Positions 3,482 through 57,894 of a stretch of 64,000 bases of DNA are shown one piece after another. A program made the position numbers and the translations under genes. The notes under the pieces are model-generated. The model was not told the DNA's origin. It saw only the letters and a list, made by a program, of their open reading frames with translations, and made no database searches. Origin of the DNA: Nostoc sp. CENA543 (GTDB lineage Bacteria > Cyanobacteriota > Cyanobacteriia > Cyanobacteriales > Nostocaceae). Location of the stretch: contig NZ_CP023278.1 of NCBI RefSeq assembly GCF_002896875.1, forward strand, positions 6,268,501 to 6,332,500, written 5' to 3'. Within the stretch, counting starts at the first letter, position 1. Every line of letters starts with the position of its first letter.

Positions 3482-3970
3482 TTAATTATAGCCTTTCTGG
3501 TGTTGCTGAATTGAGATATGAATTTAGCTACGCTAACGCAGAACCGCTTGCGATAGGCGCAAAGGTGCGAAGTAATAAAGGAAAATAAAGGTATTTCTGG
3601 CATTTAATATTCTGATTCAACAACGTCGCTTTTCTTATCCTAATTAAAGTACAAATGACAATCATTAAACGCAGATAAACGCAGATAAACGCAGATAATT
3701 TTGTCATTCAGGAGACTAGGAGAAGCTATATTCATAGTCTTACTAATTACCAAAACTGACATGCAAATGACAAATAAGATTGCCAAATGTCATCAGTAGC
3801 TTACTAATAAAACTATGACTTTTTTCCTACATCAATTCCTTGATATTGATGACTTTTTTCACTTATGAGATAGCTAAAAGGGCGGTGATAATTACTGGCA
3901 TAGCGGGATAGATTCCCTACACTGGAACACCAGCAAATAGCAACAACAGTACAAACCAGGATATATTTTT
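3482..3970. other. Intergenic region with short repeats
   Basis: Contains three tandem copies of the 10-mer AAACGCAGAT (3667-3697) and a small palindromic repeat-like piece (GCTACGCTAACGCAGAACCG, near 3527) resembling sequences inserted in the tRNA array. No further gene was recognised. Confidence 0.5.
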
Positions 3971-4318
3971 ATGTTACAACCAAAACGTGCCATCCTCTTA
4001 CTAGGAACAGCCTTACTGTTTTCTCCTCTGGTGATGGGTACACCAGCACAGGCACAACCGAGAAATTCCCATAGAACAGTAGTTTACAGCAGAGAAGTTT
4101 ACCCCAGAGTAGTCAGACTGAGAAATGGGGACTACCGATTGTCTAATGGGCAAGTGGTTTCTTCTCGGAGAGTAGTGAGACTACGTACCGCAGGTTACTA
4201 TAGACTGCCTAATGGAGATATTATTCTTCCTAGTCAAGAGGTTGTTCCTGTGAGAAGAGTAGTGAGACAAAGCAATGGTTTGATTAGATTACCAAATGGT
4301 ATATTAATCCGACTCTAA
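3971..4318 (+). CDS. Secreted repeat protein of unknown function (RLPNG repeats)
   Basis: A 115-residue protein with a signal peptide (LLLGTALLFSPLVMG, cleavage near AQAQP). The mature part consists of about three repeats of roughly 25 residues with the pattern V-V-R-x-R-x-x-x-x-Y-R-L-x-N-G-x-x-x-x-S-x-x-V-V. It is strongly basic (many Arg) and probably periplasmic or surface exposed. It precedes the MFP gene by 93 bp on the same strand and may be cotranscribed. I do not recognise a named family. Confidence 0.75.
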   Translation: MLQPKRAILLLGTALLFSPLVMGTPAQAQPRNSHRTVVYSREVYPRVVRLRNGDYRLSNGQVVSSRRVVRLRTAGYYRLPNGDIILPSQEVVPVRRVVRQSNGLIRLPNGILIRL

Positions 4319-4411
4319 TATTGCTCATCAAGGAGCTTTGAGGTTACAGTTCTAGCCTAGCAAAACTAGCTCTGTAACCGCTTTCTGCACAAATTTAATA
4401 CAGGATTAGAA

Positions 4412-5932
4412 ATGACGATTGAAACATCAAACCCTGTAGATACACCAGCATTAGTCACACCAACCAAGAAGAAAAGTAGAAACTGGCTAGCTTGGTTGAT
4501 TGCTTTGAGTCTTTTAGGTGGAATTGGTTACACCATTTACTATCAAGTAGCGGTGAGTCCCCGCCAAGAAGCAAGACGCAGAGTTTTGACACAGGCGGTA
4601 GAGCGACAAACTTTATCGATCACAGTGACAGCTAACGGTACTGTCAAACCAGAACGCTCGATTAATTTAAGTCCGAAAAATTCTGGTATTCTCAAAAGAC
4701 TGCTAGTCAAAGAAGGGGATTTCGTCAAACAGGGTCAGATTTTAGCTTACATGGATGATTCCAACCTGCAAGGACAACTCACCCAAGCAAGGGGACAACT
4801 TGCACAAGCCGAAGCAAATCTGCAAAAAGCCCAAGCTGGGAATCGTCCTCAAGATATTGCTCAAGCTCAAGCCCAATTAGATGAAGCCCTGGCGAATTTG
4901 CAAAAAGCGGAAGCGGGAAATCGCCCCCAAGATATTGCTCAGGCTCAGGCGAGGTTAGCGAGTAGTCAAGCTAACTTGCAAAAGGCAGAAGATGATTTTC
5001 GTCGCAATCAAGAACTTTATAATGCAGGTGCGATCGCTCTCCAAGTTTTAAACCAAAAACGCGCCGATCGCGATAGCGCGCAAGCCCAAGTGAATGAAGC
5101 AAAGCAAGCCTTAGCACTACAACAAGCCGGTTCGCGCCCAGAAGATATTGCACAAGTACGGGCTGTAGTCAAACAAAGACAAGAAGCCCTAGCATTACTC
5201 AAAGCTGGTTCGAGAAGGGAAGATATTGATGTGGCGCGCGCCCAGGTGATATCTGCTCGCGGTTCACTACAAAATACTCAATCTCAAATTAACGACACTG
5301 TACTACGCGCTCCTTTTGACGGTATTATTACCCAAAAATATGCTGATCCTGGGGCATTTGTCACACCTACAACCTCTGGTAGTGCGGTATCTTCTGCTAC
5401 ATCTTCATCAATTTTGGCTTTAGCAGCGACAAATGAAGTAGTCGCGAATGTTTCCGAATCTAATATTGCCAAAATTAGCTTAGGGCAAAAAGTCACTATT
5501 AGAGCAGACGCTTACCCTGGCAAAACCTTTACAGGTGAAGTCAGCCAGATTGCAGCTCAAGCCACAGTTGAGCAGAATGTCACCAGTTTTCAAGTCAAAA
5601 TCCGACTTTCCGACCCCGAAAATTTATTGCGATCGGCGATGAACGTCGAAGCAGATTTTCAAGTTGGTGAAATAGAAAACGCCTTAGTTGTACCTACAGC
5701 CTCAGTAGTGCGTCGTGAAAATGCTACAGGTGTGTTTATTATGGGTGCAAAAGACAGACCAGTATTTACCCCCATTGAAACTGGAGTCACTGCTAATAAT
5801 TTTACAGAAGTGAAATCGGGATTGACGGGTAACGAAAAAGTTCTGCTGAGTTTCCCACCAGGAACCAGAACCCAATCAACCCCAAGAGGCGGCCTGTTAC
5901 CAGGGACAGGCGGAGGTCGTCGTTCTCGGTAG
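4412..5932 (+). CDS. Membrane fusion protein of ABC exporter (HlyD/DevB/MacA-like)
   Basis: A 506-residue periplasmic adaptor. One membrane span lies at about 27-46, a lipoyl/barrel half at 70-115 (NLSPKNSGIL..LLVKEGDFVKQGQILAYMD), a long alpha-helical hairpin at about 115-290, then the second barrel half (LRAPFDGIITQKYADPGAFV) and a beta-barrel. The hairpin carries four related modules with an AG-N/S-R-P/R-x-D-I core, apparently from internal duplication. MFPs of this class link an inner-membrane permease to a TolC-type channel. It heads a run MFP-permease-ATPase with 65- and 34-bp gaps, resembling DevBCA or MacAB modules. The substrate is unknown. Confidence 0.9.
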   Translation: MTIETSNPVDTPALVTPTKKKSRNWLAWLIALSLLGGIGYTIYYQVAVSPRQEARRRVLTQAVERQTLSITVTANGTVKPERSINLSPKNSGILKRLLVKEGDFVKQGQILAYMDDSNLQGQLTQARGQLAQAEANLQKAQAGNRPQDIAQAQAQLDEALANLQKAEAGNRPQDIAQAQARLASSQANLQKAEDDFRRNQELYNAGAIALQVLNQKRADRDSAQAQVNEAKQALALQQAGSRPEDIAQVRAVVKQRQEALALLKAGSRREDIDVARAQVISARGSLQNTQSQINDTVLRAPFDGIITQKYADPGAFVTPTTSGSAVSSATSSSILALAATNEVVANVSESNIAKISLGQKVTIRADAYPGKTFTGEVSQIAAQATVEQNVTSFQVKIRLSDPENLLRSAMNVEADFQVGEIENALVVPTASVVRRENATGVFIMGAKDRPVFTPIETGVTANNFTEVKSGLTGNEKVLLSFPPGTRTQSTPRGGLLPGTGGGRRSR

Positions 5933-54472: not shown

Positions 54473-54785
54473 ATACACAATATTTTTTGCAATTAACCCT
54501 AATCCCTATTAGGGATTGAAACTTGTGCAGATTAAGCGATCACGATCACCGAAGGCGGGTCTTTGACGTTTAAGTATTACTCATGGGGATAAGGGCTGAT
54601 TTAAAGCTGTGATAAAGATTACTTGAAATACTAGTGTTCATATAAGGAATGTGTGATGATAACCTCGTTCAAGATTAGACTTGGCAAACTTTGCCCAGAA
54701 TACCCAGAAAACTATGATTTTTAGGGGGCTGGCAAGCAAAGAGACTTACTAATGCTGAGTTGGCAATATAACGAGGTATAAAGCC
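54473..54785. other. Intergenic region with solitary CRISPR-type repeat
   Basis: A 313-bp gap that holds one CRISPR-like repeat at 54486-54522 and otherwise no gene. No second repeat or spacer array follows within 250 bp. Confidence 0.6.
54486..54522 (+). repeat. Solitary CRISPR-type repeat
   Basis: TTTGCAATTAACCCTAATCC-CTATTAGGGATTGAAAC has the length (37 nt), the perfect inner palindrome AATCCCTATTAGGGATT and the ATTGAAAC end of cyanobacterial CRISPR repeats. It occurs once and no cas gene is in the window, so it is an orphan unit (relict, or an anchor from a lost array). Confidence 0.65.
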
Positions 54786-56509: not shown

Positions 56510-56538
56510 TTGACACTTTTGTAATACTTATGTAGCAT
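56510..56538 (+). promoter_or_regulatory. Sigma-70-type promoter for tRNA array
   Basis: TTGACA (56510-56515), 17-bp spacer, TAGCAT (56533-56538). The first tRNA starts 88 bp beyond the -10 box. This is the only consensus-like promoter seen before the array, and it lies just after a terminator. Confidence 0.6.
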
Positions 56539-56625: not shown

Positions 56626-56723
56626 GGGGGTGTAGCTTAGTCCGGTTTAAAGCAGTCGCCTGTCGAGCGAAAGAACGTGTGTACCTTTCGGGAAGGCTTT
56701 GCCAACAAATCCCATCATCCCCA
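56626..56723 (+). tRNA. tRNA-Asp (GTC), with 23-nt T-loop insertion
   Basis: The acceptor arms GGGGGTG/CATCCCC pair. The D arm is GCTT/AAGC. The anticodon loop CTGTCGA gives GTC. Positions 56683-56705 are an extra block (ACCTTTCGGGAAGGCTTTGC-CAA) after T54; the loop resumes with CAAAT. The T stem GTGTG/CCCAT has a mismatch. Without the insertion it is a tRNA of ordinary length, first of the array. Confidence 0.75.
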
Positions 56724-56726
56724 TGT

Positions 56727-56804
56727 AGCCTTGTGGACAAAAAGATTAAGTCGCTTTGATTCTCAGTCAGAGAGAAGCGGGTGCAACTCCCGTCGAGGCT
56801 TCCA
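56727..56804 (+). tRNA. tRNA-Glu-like (CTC), unusual body
   Basis: The acceptor AGCCTTG pairs with CGAGGCT; T plus CCA is encoded after it. The anticodon arm has an extra pair, TTTGA-TTCTCAG-TCAGA, giving CTC. The D loop lacks GG and the T loop is TGCAACT in place of TTC. Its general shape resembles the tRNA-Glu (TTC) at 56993 but function is doubtful. It starts 3 bp after the previous tRNA. Confidence 0.6.
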
Positions 56805-56809
56805 AACAT

Positions 56810-56906
56810 TGCAGTGTAGCTTAATGGCAAAGCCCCAAGCTCATAACTTGGTAAATGTGGGTACCCTTCGGGATGCCTACGGCTACAACTCCCACCACTG
56901 CAACCA
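56810..56906 (+). tRNA. tRNA-Met (CAT), with 23-nt T-loop insertion, CCA encoded
   Basis: TGCAGTG/CACTGCA acceptor and CCAAG-CTCATAA-CTTGG anticodon arm give CAT. The T stem GTGGG/CCCAC is perfect, but after T54 there is an extra 23-nt block (56863-56885, ACCCTTCGGGATGCCTACGG-CTA) before CAACT. A + CCA is encoded. Elongator Met or Ile2 (lysidine) cannot be decided. Confidence 0.78.
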
Positions 56907-56909
56907 AAT

Positions 56910-56981
56910 GCAGGGATGGTGTAATTGGCAACACCAGAGTCTCCAAAACTGTTGTTCTGGGTTCAAGTTCTAATCCTTGCG
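56910..56981 (+). tRNA. tRNA-Trp (CCA)
   Basis: Acceptor GCAGGGA/TCCTTGC, anticodon loop CTCCAAA (CCA), anticodon stem AGAGT/ACTGT with one mismatch, T loop TTCAAGT with a weak T stem (CTGGG/TCTAA). No insertion and no encoded CCA. It begins 3 bp after the previous tRNA's CCA. Confidence 0.7.
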
Positions 56982-56992
56982 TTCTACTCTCT

Positions 56993-57065
56993 GCCCCTGT
57001 GGACAAATGGTTAAGTCGCTGCTCTTTCAAAGCGGAAATTGCGGGTTCAAATCCCGCCAGGGGAA
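56993..57065 (+). tRNA. tRNA-Glu (TTC)
   Basis: Anticodon arm CTGCT-CTTTCAA-AGCGG gives TTC. The T arm GCGGG-TTCAAAT-CCCGC is perfect. Acceptor GCCCCTG/CAGGGGA pairs except the first position. D loop AAATGGTTAA contains GG. No insertion. Confidence 0.8.
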
Positions 57066-57078
57066 TTATTCACCTTAT

Positions 57079-57152
57079 CCCCTGGTAGCTCAGTTGGTAG
57101 TAGCGTCTGTTTGAAAAACAGAAGGTCGTCAGTTCGATTCTGACCTGGGGGA
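57079..57152 (+). tRNA. tRNA-Phe (GAA)
   Basis: Acceptor CCCCTGG/CTGGGGG with two G-T pairs, anticodon arm TCTGT-TTGAAAA-ACAGA (GAA), T arm GTCAG-TTCGATT-CTGAC. No insertion. This is the most normal member of the array. Confidence 0.88.
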
Positions 57153-57161
57153 CTGGCACAT

Positions 57162-57259
57162 TGCCCCATAGCTTAATGGCAGAGCAAGTGGCTGTTAACC
57201 GCGAGGCTGTAGGTACCCTTCAGGAACGCTTACGCGAACGAGTCCTACTGGGGCAGCCA
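57162..57259 (+). tRNA. tRNA-Asn (GTT), with 24-nt T-loop insertion, CCA encoded
   Basis: Perfect acceptor TGCCCCA/TGGGGCA with G + CCA. Anticodon loop CTGTTAA gives GTT. The T stem GTAGG/CCTAC is intact. After T54 there is an insert of 24 nt (57215-57238, ACCCTTCAGGAACGCTTACG-CGAA), then CGAGT. Confidence 0.8.
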
Positions 57260-57262
57260 TTA

Positions 57263-57403
57263 ATTGCCGAGTGGATGAATTGGTAGAGTCACCTGTCTCT
57301 GAAACAGGAATTTGTAGGTACCCTACCCTTCTCTACGAGAGACTGCGCCAACGGGAACGCTCTGCGAACGGGAAGCAAGCTACAACTCCTGTCGGGAGTA
57401 CCA
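57263..57403 (+). tRNA. tRNA-Gln-like (CTG), with 63-nt T-loop insertion
   Basis: Anticodon arm CCTGT-CTCTGAA-ACAGG gives CTG. The 5' half (GTGGATGAATTGGTAGA) resembles tRNA-Leu sequences, so this may be a chimera or a decayed Leu. The T loop carries a 63-nt block (57320-57382) of short hairpins starting ACCCTACCCTTC and ending GCTA, then CAACT-CCTGT; CGGGAGT A CCA ends it. The acceptor has one mismatch. Confidence 0.6.
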
Positions 57404-57406
57404 ATT

Positions 57407-57445
57407 GGGTCGTTGGCAGAGCGGATAAATAACGCCCTTGTGTAT
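57407..57445 (+). pseudogene. Truncated tRNA (5' half)
   Basis: GGGTCGTTGGCAGAGCGGAT-AAATAACGCCCTTGTG looks like the acceptor/D-arm half of a tRNA and stops about 5 bp before the next tRNA. There is no anticodon or 3' half. Confidence 0.5.
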
Positions 57446-57521
57446 GGGGTATTGGCATAGCGGCAAGTGCATCGGACTTTTAATCCGACTTAGACAGGTT
57501 CGACTCCTGTATACCCCACCA
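57446..57521 (+). tRNA. tRNA-Lys (TTT), CCA encoded
   Basis: Perfect acceptor GGGGTAT/ATACCCC, A + CCA encoded. Anticodon arm CGGA-CTTTTAA-TCCG gives TTT. T arm ACAGG-TTCGACT-CCTGT. No insertion. Confidence 0.88.
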
Positions 57522-57527
57522 AATTTT

Positions 57528-57601
57528 ACCCCTGTGATGCAATTGGCAGACATGACCTGCTTAAAACGGGTTTTCTACAGGTTCAAATCCTGTCAGGGGT
57601 A
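57528..57601 (+). tRNA. tRNA with Leu anticodon (TAA) on a short-variable-arm body
   Basis: Perfect acceptor ACCCCTG/CAGGGGT, anticodon arm ACCTG-CTTAAAA-CGGGT giving TAA, T arm ACAGG-TTCAAAT-CCTGT. The variable region is only 5 nt (TTTCT), whereas tRNA-Leu is normally class II with a long arm, so identity as a Leu acceptor is doubtful. Confidence 0.72.
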
Positions 57602-57610
57602 TCAACTTAT

Positions 57611-57710
57611 GGGAGTGTCGCCTAATGGATGGGCATCGTTCGCGTTAGCGTCTCCGAAGGAGAATCTTCTAAATCGACCGATGTAGGTTCAAGTCCTACC
57701 ACTTCTGCCA
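57611..57710 (+). tRNA. tRNA-Arg (TCT), with 25-nt insertion in the anticodon stem, CCA encoded
   Basis: Acceptor GGGAGTG/CACTTCT, G + CCA. T arm GTAGG-TTCAAGT-CCTAC. The anticodon loop CTTCTAA (TCT) is followed by ATCGA, whose partner TCGAT is split: TCG, then 25 nt (57639-57663, TTCGCGTTAGCGTCTCCGAA-GGAGA), then AT. Removing the block restores a perfect 5-bp stem; with it the stem cannot form normally. Confidence 0.78.
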
Positions 57711-57715
57711 AATAT

Positions 57716-57788
57716 GGGTCTGTAGCTTAATTGGGAAAGCGTCTGCCTTGCAAGCAGAAAGATGTCGGTTCAAATCCGACCAGTATCC
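57716..57788 (+). tRNA. tRNA-Ala (TGC) with altered acceptor stem
   Basis: Anticodon arm TCTGC-CTTGCAA-GCAGA gives TGC and T arm GTCGG-TTCAAAT-CCGAC is perfect. The acceptor GGGTCTG/CAGTATC has mismatches at positions 3 and 4, so the G3-U70 pair that marks tRNA-Ala is missing. It may be non-functional or misacylated. Confidence 0.75.
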
Positions 57789-57794
57789 ACTTAT

Positions 57795-57894
57795 GGTGTC
57801 TGTTGGCGTAGCTGCTCCTATGGAGCTAGCCAAAGCAGTCGCGGCACTGGTTTGTGAAACCAGTCATTAGGGAGTTCAAGCCTCCTCAGACACC
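57795..57894 (+). tRNA. tRNA-His (GTG), with 24-nt insertion after the acceptor stem
   Basis: Extended acceptor GGTGTCTG/CAGACACC including G-1 and C73, the His identity pair. Anticodon arm CTGGT-TTGTGAA-ACCAG gives GTG. Between acceptor position 7 and the TA/D arm there is a 24-nt insert (57803-57826, TTGGCGTAGCTGCTCCTATG-GAGC). The D stem GCC/GGC and T arm GGGAG-TTCAAGC-CTCCT are otherwise recognisable. Confidence 0.78.

Follow-up and report, generated by a model that had tools for sequence, protein, structure and literature searches.

Short two-hairpin inserts at a single T-loop position in tRNA arrays of Nostoc sp. CENA543 and related cyanobacteria

Small dispersed repeats (SDRs) of Nostoc and its relatives, reportedly described by Elhai et al. 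in 2008, are said to be non-coding sequences of 20–27 nucleotides (nt) that are dispersed in Nostocales genomes, have a common secondary structure with compensatory changes, and occur nested in their own copies, in heptamer arrays, and in minitransposons. For SDR5, an exact insertion point in highly iterated palindrome 1 (HIP1) is reported in PMC4390886. Other miniature elements, the repetitive extragenic palindromic (REP) sequences and the hairpin-forming REP doublets (REPINs), are mobilized by REP-associated tyrosine (RAYT) transposases (PMC3116915). According to PMC10272220, the trn operon of Anabaena sp. PCC 7120 comprises 26 tRNA genes, lies on the delta plasmid, and is repressed by TrcR. 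Here, we analyzed a 64,000-nt stretch of the Nostoc sp. CENA543 chromosome (NZ_CP023278.1, positions 6,268,501 to 6,332,500; hereafter, the window), in which a tandem tRNA array at ~56626–57893 includes four genes with extra sequence in the T-loop. With a probability of roughly 0.7, we consider these inserts to be site-specific, ultrasmall, SDR-like mobile repeats that use the TTC of the T-loop and are tolerated in redundant arrays.

A preliminary description of the window had placed inserts of 23, 23, 24, and 63 nt directly after T54 in tRNA-Asp, tRNA-Met, tRNA-Asn, and a Gln-like tRNA, with the loop resuming at C56, and these positions were reproduced exactly. All four inserts lie precisely between T54 and C56 with loss of T55, start with ACC, and end with A. 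The main insertion rule, TTC to T-[A...A]-C, is the same in T-loops, nested copies, and most dispersed sites, in agreement with an early suggestion that a miniature element targets the conserved TTC loop. An element-first scan of array loci, using eight consensus patterns with up to three mismatches, returned 162 copies; 158 were flanked by T and C, and 152 occupied the exact T54/C56 site of a T-loop. Such sharing of one site is far beyond chance, as had been supposed, and the random insertion points in relatives that would have indicated simple decay were not seen. On this reading, the elements insert at TTC followed by a purine (R), converting T-T-C to T-[A...A]-C, and the GTTCRA of the T-loop presents this target in nearly every tRNA gene, which explains the shared insertion point.

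The same elements were also found outside tRNA genes. Two subtypes, A20 and C27, are also dispersed, with 176 and 291 exact copies, respectively, in 48 genomes, while the T-loops of the array loci that we fetched contained 38 exact copies of A20 and 42 of C27. The dispersed copies lay in heptamer arrays and palindromic repeats, among other places, and most had T...C flanks. With repeats not collapsed, a 5'-T preceded 36 of 38 A20 and 22 of 24 C27 copies, and a 3'-C followed 37 of 38 and 17 of 24. Of six dispersed copies detected in a 400-kb portion of this genome, four were in arrays of the heptamer AATTCAA, in which TTC is the empty site; nested copies are inserted at TTC loops of the element itself. 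Separately, elements of this kind (20, 27, or 23 nt) were seen at one and the same TTC in palindromic repeats that differ in sequence but share a similar core, mostly ATTCATGAAT; the loci, numbered here with the prefix L, are L134, L142–L157, L160, L161 (genome G024), L187, L191, L193, L198, and L306. At L080 (~862–885), a copy sits in the anticodon loop of a tRNA-Glu-like gene with a TTC anticodon, at the classical intron position, and interrupts the anticodon.

The element is a non-coding repeat of two hairpins between terminal A residues (A-hairpin 1-hairpin 2-A), with three-base loops in hairpin 1 and a length of mostly 20–27 nt; distinct inserts span 20–32 nt. A strict two-hairpin parse succeeded for 34 of 63 distinct inserts, against 104 of 3,150 shuffles, and covered nine different hairpin 1 stems. 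Twenty of the 29 inserts that failed it belong to a 27-nt class with one C-T mismatch in hairpin 2. Across a 17-row alignment, 94.1% of hairpin 1 cells and 70.6% of hairpin 2 cells were paired. The architecture and the site are shared by an insert of different sequence in a genome of another family (L227, genome G364). Small hairpins had been noted in the window inserts from the outset; this holds for hairpin 2, which has no defect in the Asp, Met, or Asn insert, whereas in hairpin 1 the Asn insert has a C-A mismatch and the Asp insert a terminal U-G wobble.

Set against the general description of SDRs rather than the sequence of any SDR family, the elements agree in size range, shared secondary structure, nesting, presence in heptamer arrays, and exact insertion points. 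By size and dispersal, A20 and C27 fit that description, and a third subtype, B24, was not found dispersed. Common structure with compensatory changes is seen in the 34 strict parses and more weakly in the 17-row alignment, and both nested copies and AATTCAA arrays were observed. A probable difference lies in the target, which here is the T-loop TTC of accessory tRNA arrays, with one subtype found only there. They also resemble REPIN and REP sequences as short, non-autonomous hairpin doublets, but the available text of PMC3116915 describes neither a TTC-to-T[A...A]C rule nor a tRNA T-loop target for REPIN.

To define the spread of these inserts, a covariance model was built from 17 insert-bearing tRNAs and applied with a cut-off of E up to 1e-9 (~66 bits), below which the best plain-length tRNA match fell (56.0 bits). 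Matches were obtained in 48 of the 192 family genomes searched, so that what was first seen in the window is general among its relatives, and in 11 of 386 genomes sampled across the phylum, including three that do not belong to the family. Our catalog holds 119 insert-bearing and 833 plain tRNAs (119/952 inserted) from 60 arrays, most of which were fetched because the model matched them and were thus chosen for inserts. By scanner, arrays contained at most seven inserts, and seven arrays had none. To be recorded by the scanner, a gene must have T54, C56, A58, T60, and a minimum of stem pairing; decayed carriers are therefore missed, including the window tRNA-Asp and the Gln-like gene. From its 176 raw rows, we dropped those in which the insert was not A...A, spurious rows, and artifacts of the long variable arm of tRNA-Ser, a filter that also lost at least one real truncated copy (a Leu gene at L077). 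The catalogued cases are confined to arrays: 123 of 126 distinct scanner rows had at least two tRNA neighbors within 1.5 kb, and the remaining three were spurious. Plasmid loci L012, L014, L017, L019, L020, and L021 were duplicate records and were omitted from array comparisons. In the literature that we searched, which left most subscription papers outside its coverage, no description of T-loop inserts in cyanobacterial tRNAs was found.

Within this genome, a second, better-kept tRNA array lies on a 41-kb contig (C2) and has uninserted versions of the Asp, Met, and Asn isoacceptors, together with a fifth T-loop insert in tRNA-Gly(TCC). The original set of four affected tRNAs therefore stands but is incomplete, as the Arg and His genes of the window array also carry copies, reverse-oriented and at non-T-loop sites. 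Compared with the intact C2 gene, the His copy converts a minus-strand TTC to T-[A...A]-C. Related arrays occur on plasmids of Nostoc, Calothrix, Tolypothrix, and Kovacikia, from which 13 plasmid array loci were fetched. An annotated HNH endonuclease gene is directly upstream of the array in eight of these (L012, L013, L014, L015, L016, L018, L021, and L023), and at L001 a 178-amino-acid open reading frame upstream of the array (3965–4501, minus strand) looks HNH-like by eye.

The window array is related to the plasmid-borne trn operon of Nostocales but lies on the chromosome and has partly decayed. It shares with the Anabaena trn operon its tandem accessory tRNA genes and a similar promoter with a TrcR-like site, and differs in being chromosomal and partly decayed. 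A term search of the text of PMC10272220 found neither "insertion" nor "T-loop". By the Anabaena precedent, such arrays would be accessory and repressed in normal growth. The promoter-like site is weak on its own, as TTGACA-17-TAGCAT occurs three times in the window against 2.0 expected by shuffling; overlapping it at 56521–56538, an 18-mer has 14 of 18 letters of the Anabaena TrcR-binding motif (motif from PMC10272220), and at least 13 of 18 are reached by only 8 of 127,966 window 18-mers.

We then considered the turnover of the inserts. None was found in the T-loops of the 43 housekeeping tRNAs of this genome. If the inserts are tolerated mobile repeats, copies would persist in trn-operon-type arrays and their decaying chromosomal relatives, presumably because array tRNAs are redundant and, if Anabaena is a guide, not expressed in normal growth; the carrier tRNAs would be impaired, and an equivalent insertion in a housekeeping tRNA would be purged by selection. 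Inserts are gained or lost faster than tRNA bodies change, as 21 identical bodies occur both with and without an insert and four occur with different inserts. L076, the array nearest to that of the window among nine related ones compared, has the same insert in its Met gene as the window. Shared ancient insertion in distant arrays was not supported, with fewer co-insertions than expected under independence in the four lower identity bins; the closest bin held 23 co-insertions against 18.6 expected. Recent, recurrent insertion into redundant genes is the simplest account, although working extended tRNAs would look similar. A55, a possible excision footprint, was present in only 2 of 833 plain tRNAs, one of them a Glu(CTC) whose kin have G55, and we therefore make no claim of a footprint.

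Target use within arrays was not even. Across the 60 arrays, there are 879 T-loop TTCR sites and 668 other TTCR sites in the same tRNAs, from which the expected T-loop share of copies is 0.57, or 0.84 if RTTCR is required; as 152/162 exceeds both, T-loops are over-used. Glu(CTC) genes of the arrays have G55 in 44 of 45 cases and thus lack the TTC, and none of the 45 was inserted, compared with 119/952 overall. The probability of this is ~0.0025 under independent draws, though the genes are related and the result is only indicative. Overall, G55 (GTGC) was present in 71 of 833 plain array tRNAs (44 Glu CTC, 23 Met CAT, 2 TCA, and 2 GTA, by scanner anticodon) and in none of the 43 housekeeping tRNAs of this genome. 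In the arrays, it possibly allows a tRNA to escape insertion or alters its function through the loss of pseudouridine 55.

Several observations weigh against the reading of the inserts as tolerated mobile repeats. Pair-preserving changes were few in the 17-row alignment (one of three hairpin 1 pairs and one of two hairpin 2 pairs). The 3' flank was T in 6 of the 24 dispersed C27 copies, and in both the window Arg gene and the tRNA-Arg of L014, the reverse copy does not begin with A. Hairpin-loop targeting of dispersed copies was not supported, the empty site falling in a predicted loop in 4 of 15 A20 and 8 of 14 C27 contexts against a background of 0.50 (repeats collapsed); folding energy was lower at A20 sites (p 0.019) and not at C27 sites (p 0.46). 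Nor does the insertion rule alone explain the density in arrays, where 38 exact A20 T-loop copies fall among ~879 T-loop TTCR sites. This genome has ~52,000 RTTCR sites and only 16 exact A20 copies outside arrays, though the array figure is inflated because arrays were mostly chosen for inserts. All 12 exact copies of B24 in the 48 genomes, themselves chosen for having inserts, were in T-loops. Finally, insert-bearing bodies did not evolve faster when species were matched, unlike what would be expected of long-dead genes: the differences in body identity were +0.003 for both-inserted minus both-plain (17 species, p 0.55) and −0.004 for mixed minus plain (25 species, p 0.60). Mean body identity between arrays was 0.887 whether both members of a pair were inserted or both were plain (134 array pairs). 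When species were not matched, identity was 0.010 lower in mixed pairs (868 array pairs, p 0.0009), and the outcome for decay is thus mixed.

Most unexpected in these data are the restriction of one subtype to tRNAs and the state of the carriers, which are largely intact. A more specific proposal can be made, which we put forward tentatively and would not favor as it stands. Under it, a lineage of ultrasmall mobile elements has specialized for tRNA genes, with B24 and the GATGCC subtype copying from T-loop to T-loop, perhaps via the tRNA transcript; T55G in Glu(CTC) and other array tRNAs would be an escape mutation, and carriers may still function with their T-loop extended. The route through the transcript would perhaps involve reverse insertion of a mobile two-hairpin RNA into the T-loop UUC, followed by reverse transcription. 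With up to one mismatch allowed, all four B24 copies in 30 evenly drawn family genomes were in arrays, one being the window Asn insert, and five of six GATGCC copies were in array T-loops.

Among the rival explanations, the one that survives best, though we consider it unlikely, is that the carriers are working tRNAs, with hairpins that protrude at position 55, the T stem, U54, C56, R57, and A58 in place, and a use under translational stress. The element-first scan, which does not select on the stem, found all five T-stem pairs in 120 of 143 carriers and four in the other 23. The acceptor, anticodon, D, and T stems of scanner-found carriers were as intact as those of plain array tRNAs, and the equal body identities and the over-use of T-loops relative to other TTCR sites of the same tRNAs point in the same direction. 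Against this, residue 55 is lost, housekeeping tRNAs are free of inserts, and U8 is kept in 95 of 125 carriers versus 703 of 830 plain tRNAs (p 0.019), with six other features the same. Perfect T stems were also fewer in carriers than in plain tRNAs found by ARAGORN at the same loci (969/1,038; Fisher p 0.0003), although ARAGORN favors good stems and a further 95 of its tRNAs had no recognized T-loop. Predicted folds, made without a plain-tRNA control, lost the T arm in three of the four window genes (Met, Asp, and the Gln-like gene) and kept it in Asn; in the Met fold, ACCC of the insert pairs with GGGU of the T stem. These models weigh mildly against carrier function. The suggestion that T-loop-extended tRNAs work as they are thus keeps its footing in the largely intact bodies and loses it in the folds, and young insertions would equally leave bodies largely intact.

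Far less probable is an intron-like sequence that an endonuclease would cut out of the pre-tRNA, with the ends then joined, for example, by RtcB. We know of no bacterial splicing endonuclease of this kind. The conserved site and a two-hairpin architecture kept across different sequences would suit an intron, as would the TrcR-like promoter of the window array, since rtcB is repressed by TrcR in the same regulon as the Anabaena trn operon (PMC10272220, accessible part). However, if A...A were removed, U54 would be joined to C56 in a T-loop of 6 nt that lacks residue 55. Moreover, copies are found outside tRNAs, in reverse orientation within them, and once in an anticodon loop (L080), and the housekeeping tRNAs of this genome have none, which leaves little support for the removal initially contemplated. 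An archaeal- or eukaryotic-type (bulge-helix-bulge) tRNA intron was likewise rejected, as excision would not restore an intact mature tRNA: residue 55 would be absent from the four window genes and also throughout the catalog, whose rows were limited to inserts with A at both ends. The catalytic core of group I introns is ~200 nt or more; the window inserts are 23–63 nt, and an Rfam scan of the window listed no intron at gathering score, so a group I intron was also dismissed.

This bears on published cyanobacterial tRNA "group I introns" of 22–49 nt, reported in the accessible part of PMC5733544 and far too short for that class. They include one of 22 nt in tRNA-Arg(ACG) of Nostoc PCC 7524. 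The same part of that paper states that there are no introns outside the anticodon loop and reports no T-loop cases. The plasmid Arg(ACG) gene of Nostoc PCC 7524 (L014, 3838–3858) carries a 21-nt reverse-oriented copy of the element, and by strain, isoacceptor, and size, the two are most likely the same thing.

It is also highly improbable that selection keeps the inserts as a useful T-loop extension, for instance, through resistance to tRNA-cleaving toxins, altered EF-Tu interaction, or altered modification; T-loop copies do exceed those at neutral sites and exact B24 copies are confined to T-loops, but inserts turn over faster than bodies, differ between near relatives, and are shared between distant arrays no more than by chance. 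Least probable of all is plain decay of a pseudo-array, in which unrelated insertions in dead genes were noticed since tRNAs read easily: the window array is partly dead (the Gln-like gene, truncated Lys, and broken Arg and His), but 152 of 162 copies share one exact site in arrays that are otherwise largely intact.

If the inserts are indeed tolerated SDR-like mobile repeats, mobile elements that are among the smallest known strike a single base position in the tRNA arrays of many Nostocales. Dozens of young insertions that can be aligned exactly, with empty sites as controls, would then be at hand, making SDR movement testable at a defined target. It would also raise the question of whether a tRNA tolerates 20–60 additional bases where residue 55 should be, and would suggest that one or more of the cyanobacterial tRNA "introns" in the literature may be misreadings.

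The features of the window array are collected in Table 1. The gene first described as Gln-like proved to be chimeric. Its 5' half matches the tRNA-Gln(CTG) gene of L079 in 55 of 57 letters, in keeping with that name, but its 3' half matches the tRNA-Leu gene of L095 in 22 of 23. Its T stem pairs, though two of five pairs are G-U, and its acceptor strands stem from different tRNAs. The chimera is best explained by recombination between the inserts of two T-loops, and as the junction falls within T-loop inserts, these may act as recombination sites within the array.

Table 1. Coordinates of the tRNA genes, T-loop inserts, and promoter-like site of the window array
Feature	Position in window	Strand	Remark
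Promoter-like site TTGACA-17-TAGCAT of the array	56510–56538	+	TrcR-like motif overlaps
tRNA-Asp gene with T-loop insert	56626–56723	+	Uninserted relative in C2 array
T-loop insert 1 (Asp), 23 nt, two-hairpin element	56683–56705	+	
tRNA-Glu(CTC), G55 replaces T55 in T-loop (GTGC), no insert	56727–56804	+	
tRNA-Met gene with T-loop insert	56810–56902	+	
T-loop insert 2 (Met), 23 nt, two triloop hairpins	56863–56885	+	
tRNA-Trp, no insert	56909–56982	+	
tRNA-Glu(TTC)-like gene, no insert	56992–57066	+	
tRNA-Phe, no insert	57079–57153	+	
tRNA-Asn gene with T-loop insert	57162–57255	+	
T-loop insert 3 (Asn), 24 nt, one mismatch from B24 pattern	57215–57238	+	
Chimeric tRNA, 5' half Gln(CTG) and 3' half Leu, junction inside insert	57265–57399	+	
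T-loop insert 4 (chimera), 63 nt, read as nested element copies	57320–57382	+	
tRNA-Lys(TTT)-like gene, truncated, 5' half only	57407–57442	+	Gene order compared with L076/L095
tRNA-Arg(TCT), anticodon stem broken by reverse-oriented copy (57639–57663)	57611–57707	+	
tRNA-His, broken 3' of the 5' acceptor strand by reverse-oriented copy (57803–57827)	57795–57893	+	Intact C2 gene compared

Upstream of the array, window positions 54486–54522 gave a single match to the CRISPR direct-repeat family RF01318.
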